From Gemmatimonadota bacterium (GTDB lineage: Bacteria > Gemmatimonadota > Gemmatimonadetes > Longimicrobiales > Longimicrobiaceae): DNA of 35,287 nt. Made by a program: the position numbers and the translations under genes. The notes under the pieces were generated by a model, which saw only the letters and a list, made by a program, of their open reading frames with translations, was not told the DNA's origin and did not search any database. The stretch lies in assembly GCA_007118565.1 (NCBI GenBank), contig SKRI01000056.1:1-35287 (forward strand). Reading direction: 5' to 3'. Within the stretch, counting starts at the first letter, position 1. Each line of letters opens with the position of its first letter. Shown in pieces: positions 30,033 through 35,287 of this stretch.

Positions 30033-30854
30033 TCAGCTGGCCGGCCTGCGCCTCCGCGGCCGCGCAGCGCTGCTCCGGGAGGGCACCAGGAAGCGGTCCC
30101 GCACCAGCACGCTCAGGTAGTCGATCACCAGGATGGTGACGAAGACGGCCAGCAGGAGGGTCAGTACGCTCTGATAGCGGAAGACCGTCAGGTAGTTGGC
30201 GATGTAGAAGCCGATCCCCCCCGCGCCCACGAACCCGAAGATCGAGGAGGCGCGGACATTGTGCTCGAACATGAAGAGGATCTGGCTGAGGATGTGGTTG
30301 GCCGACTCCGGCAGCACCACGTAGCGGATCAGCTGCACCCGCGAGGCACCCGCCGACCCCACCGCGTGGATCGCGGCCGGGTCCATCCCCTCGATCGACT
30401 CGTACTGGAGCTTTCCGAGGTATCCCACGGTGTAGACCCCCGCAGCCAATACCCCGGCGAGCGGACCGAGACCGACCGCCACCACGAAGAGCACCGCCCA
30501 GAGGAGTGCCGGCAGGGTGCGGATGCCGGCGAGCACGACACGCGCGGGTACCGTCACCCCCCGTCCGAAGATGTTGCGAGCGCCGAGCAGGCCGAGAGGG
30601 AGGGCCAGGACGGTGCCCATGGCCGTGCCGAGAAAGGCGATCTGGAGGGTTTCCACGATGGCCTCGACGGCGACTCCGACCAGGGTGGTGTCGGGGGGAA
30701 TGGCCTCTCCCAGGATCTGGAAGAGGTTGCCGATGCCTCCCAGCCGGCCGGGCCGGATCTCGAGCGCGAGCGCCGACCATGCGGTGAGGGCAAGGAGCAC
30801 CGCCGCCACGATCAGCGGGGCGAAGTTGCGGTGGCGGGGCGGGGGAGGGGTCAT
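30033..30854 (-). CDS. phnE: PhnE-type ABC transporter permease
   Basis: A 273-residue inner-membrane permease of the phosphonate/phosphite ABC importer family. Membrane segments are visible at about 12-31, 62-88 (VEAIVETLQIAFLGTAMG onward), 105-145 and 210-250. The cytoplasmic coupling loop (EAA-like) reads GSAGASRVQLIRYVVLPESA. The segment NVRASSIFGFVGAGGIGFYI is highly typical of PhnE. The C-terminus is basic. It lies 76 bp after the phnC-like gene and completes the substrate-binding protein, ATPase and permease set. The family name describes the transporter type; the true substrate could be phosphonate, phosphite or another ligand. No Shine-Dalgarno is present. Confidence 0.88.
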   Translation of the reverse strand: MTPPPPRHRNFAPLIVAAVLLALTAWSALALEIRPGRLGGIGNLFQILGEAIPPDTTLVGVAVEAIVETLQIAFLGTAMGTVLALPLGLLGARNIFGRGVTVPARVVLAGIRTLPALLWAVLFVVAVGLGPLAGVLAAGVYTVGYLGKLQYESIEGMDPAAIHAVGSAGASRVQLIRYVVLPESANHILSQILFMFEHNVRASSIFGFVGAGGIGFYIANYLTVFRYQSVLTLLLAVFVTILVIDYLSVLVRDRFLVPSRSSAARPRRRRPAS

Positions 30855-30930: not shown

Positions 30931-31791
30931 TCATGCAGCGGCGACGCCGCGAAACAGATCGCGGAGCCGCGTGTCGTCGATCTCGCTCCCGTTCACCTCG
31001 CACACCTTGCACCCCTCGCGAAGCACGGTCACGCGGTCGCAGAAGGTACGCGCCACCTGGAGGTCATGCTCCACCATGAGTACGGTCATGCCGAGCTCGC
31101 GGTGCGCCTTGTCCAGCCCGCGCAGCACCTGCTCCGCGGTCACGTCGTCCAGCTCGGAGAGGAACTCGTCGGCCAGCAGGATCTCGGGACGCTGGACGAG
31201 GGCACGGGAGATGGCCAGCCGGCGACGCTCTCCCCCGGAGAGCTGATGGGCCAGGCGGTCGGAGAGATGGGAGATGCCGGTCGCCTCGAGCGCCTCGTGC
31301 GCGGCGCGGTATTCCGCTTCGGGGAAGAGGCCCAGCCAGGAGCGGATCTCCCCGACCCGGTGCAGGCAGCCCATGAGGGCGTTCTGGAGCACGGTGGCGC
31401 TGCTGACGAGCCCCAGGTTCTGGGGTATGTACCCGATCCGCGCGCGTAGCTGGCGGTGGGCGCGCTTCCCGTTGACCGGGGTTCCAAGGGTGGCGACGGT
31501 GCCGTGCTCGGTGGGGACCAGCCCCTTGAGCACCTTGAGGAGCGTGCTCTTCCCGGAGCCGCTCGGCCCCACGATGGCGTGCCTCTCTCCCTGACGGACG
31601 TTCAGGCAGACCTGCTGGAGCGCTGGCGCCGACTTCCCGTACCGGACCCAGACGTCGCACATCTCGATCGCGGAGCAGGGGGGCACGGTGACCGGTGCTC
31701 CACCCGCATCCCGGCCTCCCTGCCCGAGCACCGGGAGGGGGGGTGAGGCGGAGGCCCGCCCGGCCGAGTCGATGTCTGTCGCGACCTTCAT
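30931..31791 (-). CDS. phnC: PhnC-type ABC transporter ATPase
   Basis: A 286-residue ATPase driving the importer. All ABC motifs are present: Walker A GPSGSGKST (75-83), Q-loop Gln124 (YIPQNLG), signature LSGGERRR (184-191), Walker B ILLADE (204-209) with catalytic Glu209, D-loop SELDD, and H-loop His242. The usual Pro after DE is Phe (DEFLSELDD). About 40 residues rich in Gly, Ala and Pro precede the ABC domain, which is unusual for PhnC. The ATG at 31791 overlaps the phnD-like stop by four bases, which supports this start despite the extension; an internal start such as the Met at residue 44 is possible. Family knowledge predicts a homodimer bound to two PhnE subunits. Confidence 0.88.
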   Translation of the reverse strand: MKVATDIDSAGRASASPPLPVLGQGGRDAGGAPVTVPPCSAIEMCDVWVRYGKSAPALQQVCLNVRQGERHAIVGPSGSGKSTLLKVLKGLVPTEHGTVATLGTPVNGKRAHRQLRARIGYIPQNLGLVSSATVLQNALMGCLHRVGEIRSWLGLFPEAEYRAAHEALEATGISHLSDRLAHQLSGGERRRLAISRALVQRPEILLADEFLSELDDVTAEQVLRGLDKAHRELGMTVLMVEHDLQVARTFCDRVTVLREGCKVCEVNGSEIDDTRLRDLFRGVAAA

Positions 31792-32744
31792 CGTCTATCT
31801 AGGAACTGTTGATGCAGTCCGGGTAGCGCACGCACCGCCCGTCCGAAGTCTCCGAGGTGCTCCTCCGTCGTCGTCTCGGTCACCCCCACCACGCCGTAGA
31901 GGTCGCGATAGATGTCGGGCCGCTCCTCGGTCAGCGCGACCATCGCCTGCACGAAGGCGGCGCGGCGCGCTTCCGGCAGGTCGGACGAGACCACGATCGG
32001 GTGCGAGGGCACCCGGCCGAACCGCACGAACGGTCGCACGCGCTGCCGGTCCTCTTCCGAGAGGAACCGCTCGGGGGCGTCGTCCGCGCCGAAGGCGGCG
32101 TCCACCTGCCCGCGGACCAGCAGCTCCATGGCGGCCTTGTAGCCACCGGCCATGGTGTAGCTGGCGAAGGTCTCCGAGAGGGCACGCTGGAGATCCGGGA
32201 AGTCGTTCCCGGCGGGCGTGATGAGCCCGTCGGAGATCATCGCCCCGATCGGCATCACGAACCCGGAGCTTCCCGTCCAGCTCGTGTGCGCCACCCGCTT
32301 CCCCACCAGGTCCTCGAGGCCCTCCACGTCGGAGTCGCGCAGCGTGAAGCCCTCGGCCCAGTAGAACGTCTCCCCGCTTTCGCGAATCTCGGCGAGCACC
32401 ACCTCGACGCCGGCGCGCTCGTGCGCGATCCATGCGGGCGCGGCATCCATGAAGGCGGCATCTAGATTGCCGAATCGCAGCGCCTCGATCAGCGGCTCGT
32501 ACGCGGTCGGTATCGAGACCTCGACCGGCACGCCCATCCGCTCTTCCAGGAAGGAGGCGAGGGCATCGGCTCGCGTCGAGAACTCCTGCGCCCGCTCCGC
32601 CGGGAGGAAGCCCAGGCGGAAGGGTGCTTCCCGGCCCTCCCCCTGGCCGCAGGCCGACAGGAGGAGCAGCGCCGTGGTAACGGCCGCGACGAGCATGAGC
32701 GGTCGCGGCCGCCGCACTTGGAAGACTTTGAAAATCATTCTCAT
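31788..32744 (-). CDS. phnD: PhnD-type substrate-binding lipoprotein
   Basis: A 318-residue periplasmic binding protein of the phosphate/phosphite/phosphonate family. It has a twin-Arg-containing n-region (QVRRPRP), a hydrophobic stretch and lipobox LSAC (Cys32), so it is predicted to be tethered to a membrane. The mature part contains FRLGFLPAERAQEFSTRAD, IEALRFGNLDAAFMDAAPAW, KRVAHTSWTGSSGFVMP and LVRGQVDAAFGADDAPERF, all typical of PhnD-like proteins. The frame is open to 32792; ATG 32744 or 32738 gives the best signal peptide. The start codon lies just downstream of a plausible -10 box, so the transcript may be nearly leaderless, and it is overlapped by a Fur-box-like sequence. The substrate cannot be deduced. 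Confidence 0.87.
   Translation of the reverse strand: MRMIFKVFQVRRPRPLMLVAAVTTALLLLSACGQGEGREAPFRLGFLPAERAQEFSTRADALASFLEERMGVPVEVSIPTAYEPLIEALRFGNLDAAFMDAAPAWIAHERAGVEVVLAEIRESGETFYWAEGFTLRDSDVEGLEDLVGKRVAHTSWTGSSGFVMPIGAMISDGLITPAGNDFPDLQRALSETFASYTMAGGYKAAMELLVRGQVDAAFGADDAPERFLSEEDRQRVRPFVRFGRVPSHPIVVSSDLPEARRAAFVQAMVALTEERPDIYRDLYGVVGVTETTTEEHLGDFGRAVRALPGLHQQFLDRR
32729..32743 (-). promoter_or_regulatory. Fur-box-like operator
   Basis: The minus strand reads TGAGAATGATTTTCA. Against the 7-1-7 Fur consensus TGATAATnATTATCA it matches 12 of 14 fixed positions, symmetrically six per half-site. It lies immediately downstream of the proposed -10 box of the phnD-like gene, where a bound repressor would block transcription. 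It overlaps the first codons of the preferred phnD start, so part of the match could be coding coincidence. Confidence 0.5.
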
Positions 32745-32752
32745 GTAGCTGC

Positions 32753-32780
32753 AATATAGTTGCCGGTGGGGATCCCGCAA
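32753..32780 (-). promoter_or_regulatory. Putative sigma70 promoter of phnDCE-like operon
   Basis: On the minus strand a TTGCGG -35 element (32780-32775) and a TATATT -10 element (32758-32753) are separated by 16 bases. The -10 is AT-rich in otherwise GC-rich DNA. Initiation would fall around 32746, within a few bases of the ATG at 32744. Confidence 0.4.
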
Positions 32781-32908: not shown

Positions 32909-34300
32909 ATGAAGCGTGCACTACCTTTTGTGGCGCTGGGCGCTTTCGCCTGCGCCCCGGCCGCCGCTCCAACCCCGGAGGCGCCGGCGCCGGAGGGCGA
33001 GCGCCCCCTCCGCGAGGCCCACGCCTCCACCTACGAGCCCTTCACCTCCGGGCCGACGCTGATCCGCGGCGGAACGGTGATGACGGCGGCTGGCGATGTC
33101 TTCGAGGGAGGCGACGTGCTGATCGTGGATGGCCGCATCGCCGCGGTCGGACGCGACCTGGAGGTCCCGGCGGGTGCCCGCACCATCGACGCGGCAGGGC
33201 GATACGTGACCCCCGGCATCATCGACACGCACTCCCACCTGGGCGTCTACGCCAGCCCCGGCGATCAGGCGCACGCCGACGGGAACGAGATGACCCGTCC
33301 GGTGACCGGCCACGTCTGGGCCGAGCACGCGGTGTGGCCGCAGGACCCGGGCTTCCCCCGGGCGCTGGCGGGGGGCATCACCTCGCTCCACATCCTCCCC
33401 GGGTCGGCCAACCTGATCGGCGGTCGCGGAGTGACGCTGCGCAACGTGCCCGCCCGCACTACGCAGGCGATGCGCTTCCCCGGCGCGCCGCACTCCCTGA
33501 AGATGGCGTGCGGCGAGAACCCCAAGCGAGTGTACGGCAGCCGCAACCAGGCGCCGATGACCCGCATGGCCAACATCGCCCTGACCCGCGAGGCGTGGAT
33601 CCGGGCGGCCGAGTACCGGGACCAGGTGGACCGCTGGGAGAACGGGGATCGGACCGGAACTCCGCCGACCCGCAACCTGGAGCTGGAGACGCTGGTCGAC
33701 GTGCTGCGCGGCCGCATCCTGATCCAGAACCACTGCTACCGAGCGGACGAGATCGCCAACCGGCTGGAGATCGCCCGCGAGTTCGGGTACTCGATCCGCT
33801 CCATCCACCACGGCGTGGAGGCGTACAAGGTGGCCGACATGCTCGCCGAGGAAGGGGTCGGCGTCTCGATCTGGGCCGACTGGTGGGGCTTCAAGCTGGA
33901 AGCGCTGGACGCCACGAACGCCAACGCCGCGCTGACCCACCAGGCGGGCGTGACCACCGTCATCCACTCCGACGACGCCATCGGCATCCAGGTGCTGAAC
34001 CAGGAGGTGGCCAAGGCGCTCGCCGCGGGCCGCGAGGCGGGGATCGACATCTCCGACGACGAGGCGCTCCGCTGGATCACCGCCAACGCCGCCTGGACGC
34101 TGGGCGTCGAGGACGAGGTGGGCACTCTGGAGGAGGGCAAGCGGGGCGACGTGGTCATCTGGTCCGCGCACCCCTTCAGCGTCTATGCCCGCGCCGACCA
34201 GGTCTTCCTGGACGGCGCGCTCCTGCACGACCGCACCGATCCGGCGCGGAACCCGATCACCGACTTCGAGCTCGGCATCTTCTCCGGGGAAGGCAATTGA
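32909..34300 (+). CDS. Exported amidohydrolase (metal site intact)
   Basis: A 463-residue amidohydrolase-superfamily enzyme of the imidazolonepropionase-like group. It has a signal peptide (MKRALPFVALGAFACAP, possibly a weak lipobox AFAC) and an Ala/Pro/Glu-rich linker to about 40. The small beta-sandwich follows (LIRGGTVMTAAGDVFEGGD onward), then the TIM barrel. Metal ligands are all visible: His108 and His110 in DTHSHLG, Lys198 (HSLKMACGEN, a candidate carboxylated lysine), His275 (IQNHC), His300/301 (SIHHG) and Asp355 (VIHSDD). Substrates of this group include cyclic amides and X-Pro or other dipeptides; which applies here is unknown. It has a clear Shine-Dalgarno, AAGGAG at 32896-32901, seven bases before ATG. 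The stop overlaps the next gene's start by one base. Confidence 0.88.
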   Translation: MKRALPFVALGAFACAPAAAPTPEAPAPEGERPLREAHASTYEPFTSGPTLIRGGTVMTAAGDVFEGGDVLIVDGRIAAVGRDLEVPAGARTIDAAGRYVTPGIIDTHSHLGVYASPGDQAHADGNEMTRPVTGHVWAEHAVWPQDPGFPRALAGGITSLHILPGSANLIGGRGVTLRNVPARTTQAMRFPGAPHSLKMACGENPKRVYGSRNQAPMTRMANIALTREAWIRAAEYRDQVDRWENGDRTGTPPTRNLELETLVDVLRGRILIQNHCYRADEIANRLEIAREFGYSIRSIHHGVEAYKVADMLAEEGVGVSIWADWWGFKLEALDATNANAALTHQAGVTTVIHSDDAIGIQVLNQEVAKALAAGREAGIDISDDEALRWITANAAWTLGVEDEVGTLEEGKRGDVVIWSAHPFSVYARADQVFLDGALLHDRTDPARNPITDFELGIFSGEGN

Positions 34301-35287
34301 TGCGCATCACCCGTACGCTCTCAGTGGCCGCCCTGACCGGCGGCCTGATGCTCGCCGCGGCGCCCGCCACGGCGCAGGGCACCTTCGCCATCACCGGCGG
34401 CACCGTGCACACCATGACCGGCGCCTCCATCGAGGGCGGCACGGTGCTGGTTCAGGACGGCCGGGTGGTGGCCGTGGGCCGAGACGTCTCCATCCCCCAG
34501 GGCGCCGTCCGCATCGACGCGACCGGGCGGCAGGTCACCCCCGGCCTCATCGACTCCGGCACCCAGGTCGGGCTGGTGGAGGTGGGCGCCGTGGCCGGCA
34601 CCGTGGACCGCGACATGGTCACCGGCCCGCGCGAGGACCTGCGCTCGCAGATCCGCGCCGCCTTCACCGTCACCGACGGCATCAACCCGAACAGCACGGT
34701 GATCCCGGTGACCCGCATCGCCGGCATCACCACCGTGGTCTCCCGCCCCGGCTTCGGCCTGGTGGCGGGGCAGGGCGCCGTCATCGACCTGGCCGGCCGC
34801 ACCCTGGACGAGATGGTGGTGCGCTCGCCGAGCGGCATGTTCGTGCGCATCGGCGAGGGCGTCTCCCCCATCACGGGCGCCCGCGGGGCCACCATGATGA
34901 TCCTCCGGGAGATGCTGGAGGATGCGCGCACCCTCACCCCGCGCACCTACGAGCGCGGCGCGGTGCGCGAGTTCACCGCCAGCCGGCTCGATCTCCTCGC
35001 CCTGCAGCGGGTGCTGAACGGGGAGATGCCCATGGTGATGGAGGCGCACCGGGCGAGCGACATCCTGGCTGGCCTGCGGATGGCCGACGACTACGGCTTC
35101 CGGCTCGTGCTCACCGGGGCCACCGAGGCATGGATGGTGGCCGACGAGCTCGCGGCCGCCGATGTGCCGGTGGTGGTGAAGGTGATGCAGAACCTCCCCG
35201 GCTCCTTCGAGCGGCTTGGCGCCACCTTCGAGAACGCGGCGCGGCTCCACCAACGGGGCGTGCGGGTGGCGCTGACCAGCGGGGACA
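34300..35287 (+). CDS. Exported amidohydrolase-like protein lacking HxH (3' truncated)
   Basis: The first 329 residues of a second amidohydrolase-family protein; the right end lies outside the window. A signal peptide (about 1-27, MRITRTLSVAALTGGLML, ending TAQG) is followed by FAITGGTVHTMTGASIEGG and the family segment QVTPGLIDSGTQVGL. Aligned with the upstream protein's GIIDTHSHLG, both metal-binding histidines are replaced, by Gly87 and Gln89. A later His (MEAHRASD) remains. It is therefore probably not a normal binuclear hydrolase and may be a non-catalytic partner. The ATG overlaps the stop of the upstream amidohydrolase (TGATG), and GGGGAAGG lies just before it, so the two proteins should be made together. 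Confidence 0.82.
   Translation, partial: MRITRTLSVAALTGGLMLAAAPATAQGTFAITGGTVHTMTGASIEGGTVLVQDGRVVAVGRDVSIPQGAVRIDATGRQVTPGLIDSGTQVGLVEVGAVAGTVDRDMVTGPREDLRSQIRAAFTVTDGINPNSTVIPVTRIAGITTVVSRPGFGLVAGQGAVIDLAGRTLDEMVVRSPSGMFVRIGEGVSPITGARGATMMILREMLEDARTLTPRTYERGAVREFTASRLDLLALQRVLNGEMPMVMEAHRASDILAGLRMADDYGFRLVLTGATEAWMVADELAAADVPVVVKVMQNLPGSFERLGATFENAARLHQRGVRVALTSGD

Follow-up and report, generated by a model that had tools for sequence, protein, structure and literature searches.

Transferrins (PF00405; serum transferrin, lactoferrin and melanotransferrin) are secreted proteins with two lobes and many disulfides, and we take D63, Y95, Y188 and H249 of transferrin to be its four iron ligands. 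Proteins of the FbpA type bind Fe(III) in the periplasm through tyrosines and a synergistic anion and feed ABC import, often under Fur control. The PhnD-like fold is known from the binding proteins PtxB, HtxB and PhnD and from ArrX and AioX, which are sensors of arsenic oxyanions (PMC5908839). The genes called 'phnCDE' in ammonia-oxidising archaea (AOA) have been described in print as serving phosphonate or phosphate uptake, as serving 'a different substrate' or as non-functional (PMC13018155, PMC12753310, PMC7490402), the last two options being possibilities raised in a 2020 comparative study, which noted that AOA have phnCDE but no C-P lyase (PMC7490402). Shafiee et al. (2019) found N. maritimus SCM1 to be without known iron-specific transport genes and inferred reductive uptake (PMC6776035). 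In the open-licence literature that we searched, by title and opening of the abstract, nothing links AOA phnCDE or PhnD-type proteins to iron import, which is no proof of novelty, as subscription papers were mostly outside the search; passages of PMC7785015, PMC9381506, PMC8788347 and PMC9239043 gave no result.

The locus described here lies in a 35,287-nucleotide stretch of DNA (the window) from a Gemmatimonadota bacterium (GCA_007118565.1, contig SKRI01000056.1). Our main reading, which we consider likely at a probability of roughly 0.78 and which has no biochemistry behind it, is that its phnD-like operon encodes an ABC importer for ferric iron whose binding protein has a PhnD scaffold and a transferrin-type site, and that the repressor is Fur in bacteria and a regulator of the DtxR type in archaea. 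Computed results are the operator sites with their degree of conservation, the alignment of the ligand positions, the fold and the pairing of sufC with phnD. From the combination of a Fur-like site, four transferrin residues and archaeal counterparts that look iron-regulated, we infer that an iron uptake system has probably gone unrecognised here.

Importer genes and residues aligned with transferrin

The three importer genes and the codons of interest in the binding protein are as follows.

31788..32744, minus strand: PhnD-fold lipoprotein of 318 aa, the proposed ferric-iron-binding protein with transferrin-type ligands; lipobox-like LLLLSACG identified by eye
30931..31791, minus strand: PhnC-like ABC ATPase; best NCBIfam match ABC_phnC at 198.8 bits, below the cut-off of 266.1
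30033..30854, minus strand: PhnE-like ABC permease; 239.3 bits, above the NCBIfam PhnE cut-off of 216.7
32445..32447, minus strand: D100 codon, aligned with transferrin Asp63
32361..32363, minus strand: Y128 codon, aligned with transferrin Tyr95
32262..32285, minus strand: T154-G161 codons (TSWTGSSG), the loop aligned with transferrin T120-G127
32139..32141, minus strand: Y202 codon, aligned with transferrin Tyr188
32001..32003, minus strand: H248 codon (in VPSH), aligned with transferrin His249

The binding protein meets the cut-offs of PF12974 (146.1 bits against 27) and TIGR01098 (130.6 against 112.05) and does not meet that of the PhnD equivalog TIGR03431 (113 against 261.1); an archaeal orthologue likewise satisfies TIGR01098 and PhnE. 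The first-pass annotation had called these genes a phosphonate-type ABC importer, and the family matches (PF12974, PhnC-like, PhnE-type) uphold that assignment. The binding protein also matches the Pfam Transferrin family, PF00405, at E 1.5e-6 (28.1 bits against a cut-off of 20.3), and no Pfam solute-binding family beyond these two is matched at E<=1e-3; some orthologues match NMT1 families weakly. The function we propose is the same as that of FbpA, AfuA and FutA, but these belong to another binding-protein family, whereas the window protein matches PF12974 and PF00405 only.

When profiles of the binding protein and of the N-lobe of human transferrin were compared (probability 96.1, E 3e-9), D100 paired with D63, Y128 with Y95, Y202 with Y188 and H248 with H249; the residue letters used were checked. 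The anion loop aligned with that of transferrin without gaps, Thr120 being kept as T154 and Arg124 being replaced by Gly158. The binding protein thus shares with transferrins the fold, the order and positions of the D, Y, Y and H residues, the anion-loop Thr, the VPSH motif and a GFxMPIG motif that corresponds to GWNIPIG. It differs from them in being prokaryotic, in having genes for an ABC permease and an ATPase alongside its own, in the Arg124 to Gly change, and in being a single-lobed lipoprotein whose lone Cys, at position 32, lies in the lipobox-like motif. The presence of four transferrin-type iron ligands is shown as aligned positions; the geometry of the site and iron binding are inferred.

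A sequence search of the PDB with the binding protein returned PtxB, PhnD and many transferrins, and a six-row profile retrieved melanotransferrin and ovotransferrin at E of about 1e-13, behind PtxB and PhnD. The AF2 model (mean pLDDT 85.5, pTM 0.78), which is confident past the first 37 residues, has PtxB (5o2k_E) as its top fold match, at Z 27.2 and with an rmsd of 3.0 across 256 residues; it matches the E. coli PhnD structure 3quj_D at Z 23.5 (rmsd 4.8 over 252 residues) and the holo ovotransferrin N-lobe (1iej) at Z 23.2 (rmsd 3.8 over 260 residues). ArrX and AioX share the PhnD-like fold at Z 23-25, but are sensors, whereas here the gene sits in an importer cluster with an iron-type operator. 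PtxB, HtxB and PhnD have in common with the window protein the overall fold, the phnC- and phnE-like neighbours, the oxyanion loop and the Tyr at the Y128 position. In contrast, the profile alignments place Gly at the D100 position in both PtxB and E. coli PhnD; at Y202 and H248, E. coli PhnD shows Glu and Asp, and PtxB a gap and Tyr.

For conservation we used 46 distinct strong orthologues (score >300; 4 bacterial and 42 archaeal), drawn from the 85 strong places of the archaeal family search and from the scan loci. D100 is kept in 45/45 (the region is missing from one fragment), Y128 in 45 of the 46 (the exception, L003, has Y127-N128 in its place), and Y202 and H248 in all 46, as are the loop residues T154, S155 and T157-G161. 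Because 43 columns are invariant in this set, and many others nearly so, conservation alone does not single out the four residues; comparison with other members of the family does. Across 15 weaker Gemmatimonadota relatives, D100 is never present, Y128 is found in 9 of the 14 that align there, Y202 in 1 of 10 and H248 in 0 of 9, and none of the 15 carries the full D/Y/Y/H set. As PtxB and E. coli PhnD also have the Tyr at the Y128 position, without the other three residues, Y128 is a family residue, and the likeness to transferrin therefore rests on D100, Y202 and H248.

The Pfam Transferrin model separates the groups in a similar way, matching 12 of 20 chosen orthologues (E<=1e-3) versus none of 10 chosen other PhnD-like proteins, the latter being nine of the 15 weaker relatives and a Martelella protein (the six relatives with short or long frames were left out). 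Over 395 genomes of the phylum it matches in the window's genome (G000) alone, despite orthologues in genomes G355 and G395, which may score too low or may have escaped that first look. The D/Y/Y/H rows form one group in the tree with support of 99/100; long branches leave the topology beyond this clade unsure.

Between the two groups we observed a middle tier with S or G at the D100 position and Y/Y/H kept. It is made up of the Martelella protein, eight paralogues from archaea and, as far as its visible parts show, a broken copy from Natronococcus. The archaeal paralogues (L080-L087) are second-tier PhnD-like proteins with S/Y/Y/H replacing D/Y/Y/H, and the archaeal genome G462 has three matches in all. 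The G/Y/Y/H importer of the Martelella sp. AD-3 plasmid (L045, 1-6711) lies near mntR, cytochrome c peroxidase, SCO and PCu(A)C genes, and proteins similar to it occur on plasmids of Roseovarius, Phaeobacter and others. On Natronococcus occultus SP4 plasmid 2 (L044, 3767-4794) the PhnD-like gene is interrupted, with its pieces in two frames and one TAG; it is flanked by a metal-dependent transcriptional regulator and by annotated ATPase and phnE genes, and its visible parts keep GGY and VPSH. A search of viral contigs with a two-sequence alignment as query gave 40 candidate stretches and no relatives, and 777 plasmid records held only distant relatives, all below 60% identity.

Fur-box-like operators in Gemmatimonadota

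The start of the importer operon carries the following elements, each identified in the sequence.

32743..32729, minus strand: Fur-box-like operator TGAGAATGATTTTCA, which overlaps the start codon of the binding-protein gene
32753..32758, minus strand: -10-like hexamer TATATT
32775..32780, minus strand: -35-like hexamer TTGCGG, with a 16 bp spacer to TATATT

On the minus strand the ATG (32744-32742) follows TATATT by 8 bp, and the gap from TATATT to TGAGAATGATTTTCA is 9 bp. TGAGAATGATTTTCA agrees with the Fur consensus, TGATAATnATTATCA, at 12/14 fixed bases. The first-pass annotation had described a plausible -35/-10 pair followed by a Fur-like palindrome with this 12/14 match, which held in the sequence and in a genome scan; its further suggestion that the short spacing makes the phnD mRNA leaderless or nearly so is compatible with the spacing and remains a prediction, as there are no transcription-start data.

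Within the window, counting both strands, the TGAGAATGATTTTCA site is the single place with three or fewer mismatches to the Fur consensus, against a chance expectation of 0.13. Over the whole of G000 (2,915,116 bases in 306 contigs, 93.6% complete), perfect TGANAATNATTNTCA occurs once, at the importer start, and with up to one mismatch it occurs at four places, the reversed control at none. Measured against TGAGAATNATTCTCA, TGAGAATGATTTTCA has one mismatch, tied with three other sites as the four best in the genome. The reversed control is a lenient one because it holds TTA/TAA, which is scarce in this GC-rich genome.

The four one-mismatch sites precede the importer gene, a TonB receptor gene on contig C95, a small gene on C102 and a small cysteine-rich ORF on C168. 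The C95 receptor has a Plug domain and shares 60% identity over 65 aa with a receptor of another Gemmatimonadota genome, G404. The C102 small gene adjoins a Rieske-type gene (named by eye). On C168 (L026) we observed two Fur-like palindromes within about 410 bp (627-641 and 1021-1035), near the cysteine-rich ORF and a TPR-like ORF of unknown role (named by eye). At up to three mismatches, Fur-type sites number 30 in G000 (reversed control, 1), and most of the neighbouring frames lack annotation. Three-mismatch sites lie 31 bp before the fur frame (C143) and 51 bp before the sufC frame (C201; sufC was named by eye from its likeness to an archaeal protein), and they are weak evidence, since three mismatches is a level reached at 30 places in the genome. 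G000 encodes three FUR-family proteins, and the one on C143 (L020) scores best with Fur models yet below their cut-offs. We consider Fur control of the importer operon likely; Fur binding and iron-dependent expression are inferred. Two amidohydrolase-type genes, at 32909-34300 (Pfam) and 34300-35287 (by eye) of the window, diverge from the importer; with only about 165 bp between the Fur-like box and the start of the first, they too might come under its influence.

Strong orthologues were found in two further genomes among the 395 of the phylum, G355 (79% complete) and G395 (82% complete), and in G404 through a scan of GTDB contigs, so that within the sampled genomes orthologues are rare in Gemmatimonadota, the window's own phylum. 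Each has a palindrome at its operon: in G355 the imperfect palindrome TGAGAATCAAACTCA lies 15 bp upstream of the ATG, in G395 TGAGACTCGTTCTCA lies 3 bp upstream of the ATG, and in G404 TGAGAACGATTCTCA precedes a TonB receptor gene that heads a receptor-phnD-phnC-phnE cluster (receptor, binding protein, ATPase, permease). Sites with up to two mismatches to TGAGAATNATTCTCA number 7, 1 and 3 in G355, G395 and G404 (reversed controls 2, 0 and 0); the sole G395 site is the one at the importer gene, and one of the seven in G355 and one of the three in G404 fall at the operon. With so few sites per genome (expected per 120-bp stretch, 4e-4 in G355, 5e-5 in G395 and 1e-4 in G404), a palindrome at the operon of each relative is unexpected. 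A -10-like hexamer, identified by eye, stands 3-6 bp before the box in these three operons, and 3 to 9 bp before it across all four. Because the box lies outside the importer coding sequence in the three relatives, coding demand cannot explain the palindrome. The check that the first-pass annotation had proposed, a scan for the same palindrome upstream of orthologous operons beyond what coding would demand, was thus passed at 3/3 of the other Gemmatimonadota loci with upstream sequence.

Archaeal orthologues and a DtxR-like operator

A profile search of 200 genomes from the family of a Nitrosopumilus MAG, the Nitrosopumilaceae, gave a match in 105, of which 83 were at E 2e-84 or better. These archaeal orthologues are very likely the AOA 'phnCDE' of the literature, an identification not made by locus tag. 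Most of the archaeal genes have a TATA-like TTTAAATA and then TTAGCTnnnnCTAA shortly upstream of the ATG. The palindrome TTAG-N6-CTAA was present in 36 of 40 upstream stretches (each made up of the 150 bases upstream of the open frame and the first 180 bases of the frame) and absent from the other four, with a mononucleotide-shuffle mean of 0.41; the 40 stretches are related in sequence and are therefore not independent. On general background, this palindrome looks like a DtxR/IdeR box. A pattern with fixed TATA spacing matched only 5 loci because the spacing varies.

Exact TTAGCTNNNCCTAA occurs 43 times in 25 genomes that were picked for carrying the importer gene, and 39 of the 43 copies lie before either sufC (25) or phnD (14), the remainder being one before a SufB-like ORF (named by eye) and three elsewhere. 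Three further archaeal genomes have the sufC and phnD pair among their sites, and in one archaeal representative NCBIfam confirmed the identity of SufC. The wider class TTAGSNNNNSCTAA gave 10 sites in three archaeal genomes versus 27 for the reversed control; the class as a whole thus shows no enrichment, the exception being its TTAGCTNNNCCTAA form at sufC and phnD. Since the two different operators, bacterial and archaeal, also both precede sufC, the same importer is tied to an Fe-S assembly gene in two domains.

A Fur-type pattern was tried as the archaeal phnD operator and rejected: in two archaeal genomes it matched at 16 and 12 places, with no site at phnD, and only one of the two (G402) is informative, because the contig of the other (G403) starts inside the gene. 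Genome G462 encodes a protein with PF01325 and PF02742 domains that NCBIfam calls MntR, for which there are no binding data. The same genome carries two related palindromes, TTAGCTTATGCTAA, before a TroA/ZnuA-type binding protein named by eye (L136, 1501-1514), and TTAGCCTAGGCTAA, flanked by an MntR-type regulator and a multicopper oxidase identified by eye (L133, 1501-1514), which could possibly mark a second metal regulon in AOA.

Proposed mechanism, rival substrates and implications

We propose that in iron-replete cells metal-loaded Fur would sit on the palindrome over the promoter start region and block transcription, and that under iron starvation the operon would be made. The lipoprotein would then close round Fe(III) through Asp100, Tyr128, Tyr202 and His248, as in transferrin, with a small oxyanion (carbonate or phosphate) in the TSxTGSSG loop completing the iron coordination, and the PhnE-like permease and PhnC-like ATPase would move the iron inward. 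Passage across the outer membrane may use a TonB receptor, which in G404 is encoded beside the importer and here is perhaps the C95 receptor headed by a Fur box. In Nitrosopumilaceae the orthologous operon would play the same role, and it would share with sufC a repressor of the DtxR/IdeR type. With no binding, uptake or expression data to draw on, we infer that iron is bound and transported, which anion takes part, that the operon is repressed and which repressors act. The suggestion of the first-pass annotation that the importer may serve iron is supported, and is strengthened by the four aligned transferrin-type ligands and by the archaeal DtxR-like operator shared with sufC, the substrate itself being an inference. 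Among the findings that count against iron are that the nearest fold and profile match is the phosphite-binding PtxB, that the oxyanion loop is kept, and that Arg124 is replaced by Gly.

The rival that survives best, a variant that overlaps the main reading and remains possible, is that an Fe(III) chelate (citrate, pyrophosphate or a siderophore) is imported whole, with the protein touching only part of the iron. For it speak the conserved oxyanion loop, the TonB receptor with FecA-like and siderophore-receptor-like matches, albeit below model cut-offs, that leads the cluster at L040, and PDB titles that include transferrin with iron citrate and with iron pyrophosphate. Against it, an octahedral site is already complete with four ligands from the protein and a bidentate anion, and archaea lack the outer membrane that such a receptor needs.

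A second rival, which we regard as unlikely, is an importer of phosphate, phosphite or phosphonate whose expression is tied to iron through iron-phosphorus cross-talk, iron not being the substrate. In its favour are the top rank of PtxB in both structural and profile comparisons, the TIGR01098 and PhnE cut-offs met here and in the archaeal orthologue, the oxyanion loop residues invariant in 46/46 orthologues, and a 2025 paper suggesting that AOA may use PhnCDE for phosphate (PMC12753310). Against it, D100, Y202 and H248 are nearly invariant and never occur together in the weaker relatives, and the operators, a point of difference from PtxB, HtxB and PhnD, are of an iron type, common to fur, sufC and TonB receptor genes. 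The C-P lyase gene phnJ, the sole marker of phosphonate or phosphite catabolism that we tried, was found in 0/10 genomes, some of them incomplete, with a positive E. coli control. The alternative raised in the first-pass annotation, that the importer links phosphorus and iron supply, is thus weakened and not excluded.

That the metal is manganese, copper or another ion is very unlikely: the reading draws on the G/Y/Y/H distant relative beside mntR and cytochrome c peroxidase on the Martelella plasmid, but D/Y/Y/H is the ferric set of transferrin, the archaeal operator is common to the Fe-S assembly gene sufC, and the TroA/ZnuA-type gene of G462 has a different palindrome. That the palindrome is a chance match from the codons for MRMIF, as its overlap with the start codon in G000 might suggest, is all but excluded, since the box precedes the coding sequence in three relatives whose N-termini differ.

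The ferric-importer reading bears on iron acquisition by marine AOA, an open question for which a substrate, site residues and operators are now proposed, and the palindrome picked out in the first-pass annotation is real and more important than was supposed. If the reading is true, a group of 'phosphonate transporter' annotations moves to iron. The family also provides, in prokaryotes, a relative of the transferrin lobe in which, by alignment, the iron ligands are present. In a bolder reading, which we put forward tentatively and with the balance tilted slightly against it, marine AOA and some Gemmatimonadota share a high-affinity ferric importer with a single-lobe prokaryotic transferrin, and animal transferrins descend from this branch; were this so, the D/Y/Y/H ferric site would predate eukaryotes, rather than having arisen anew in animal transferrins.
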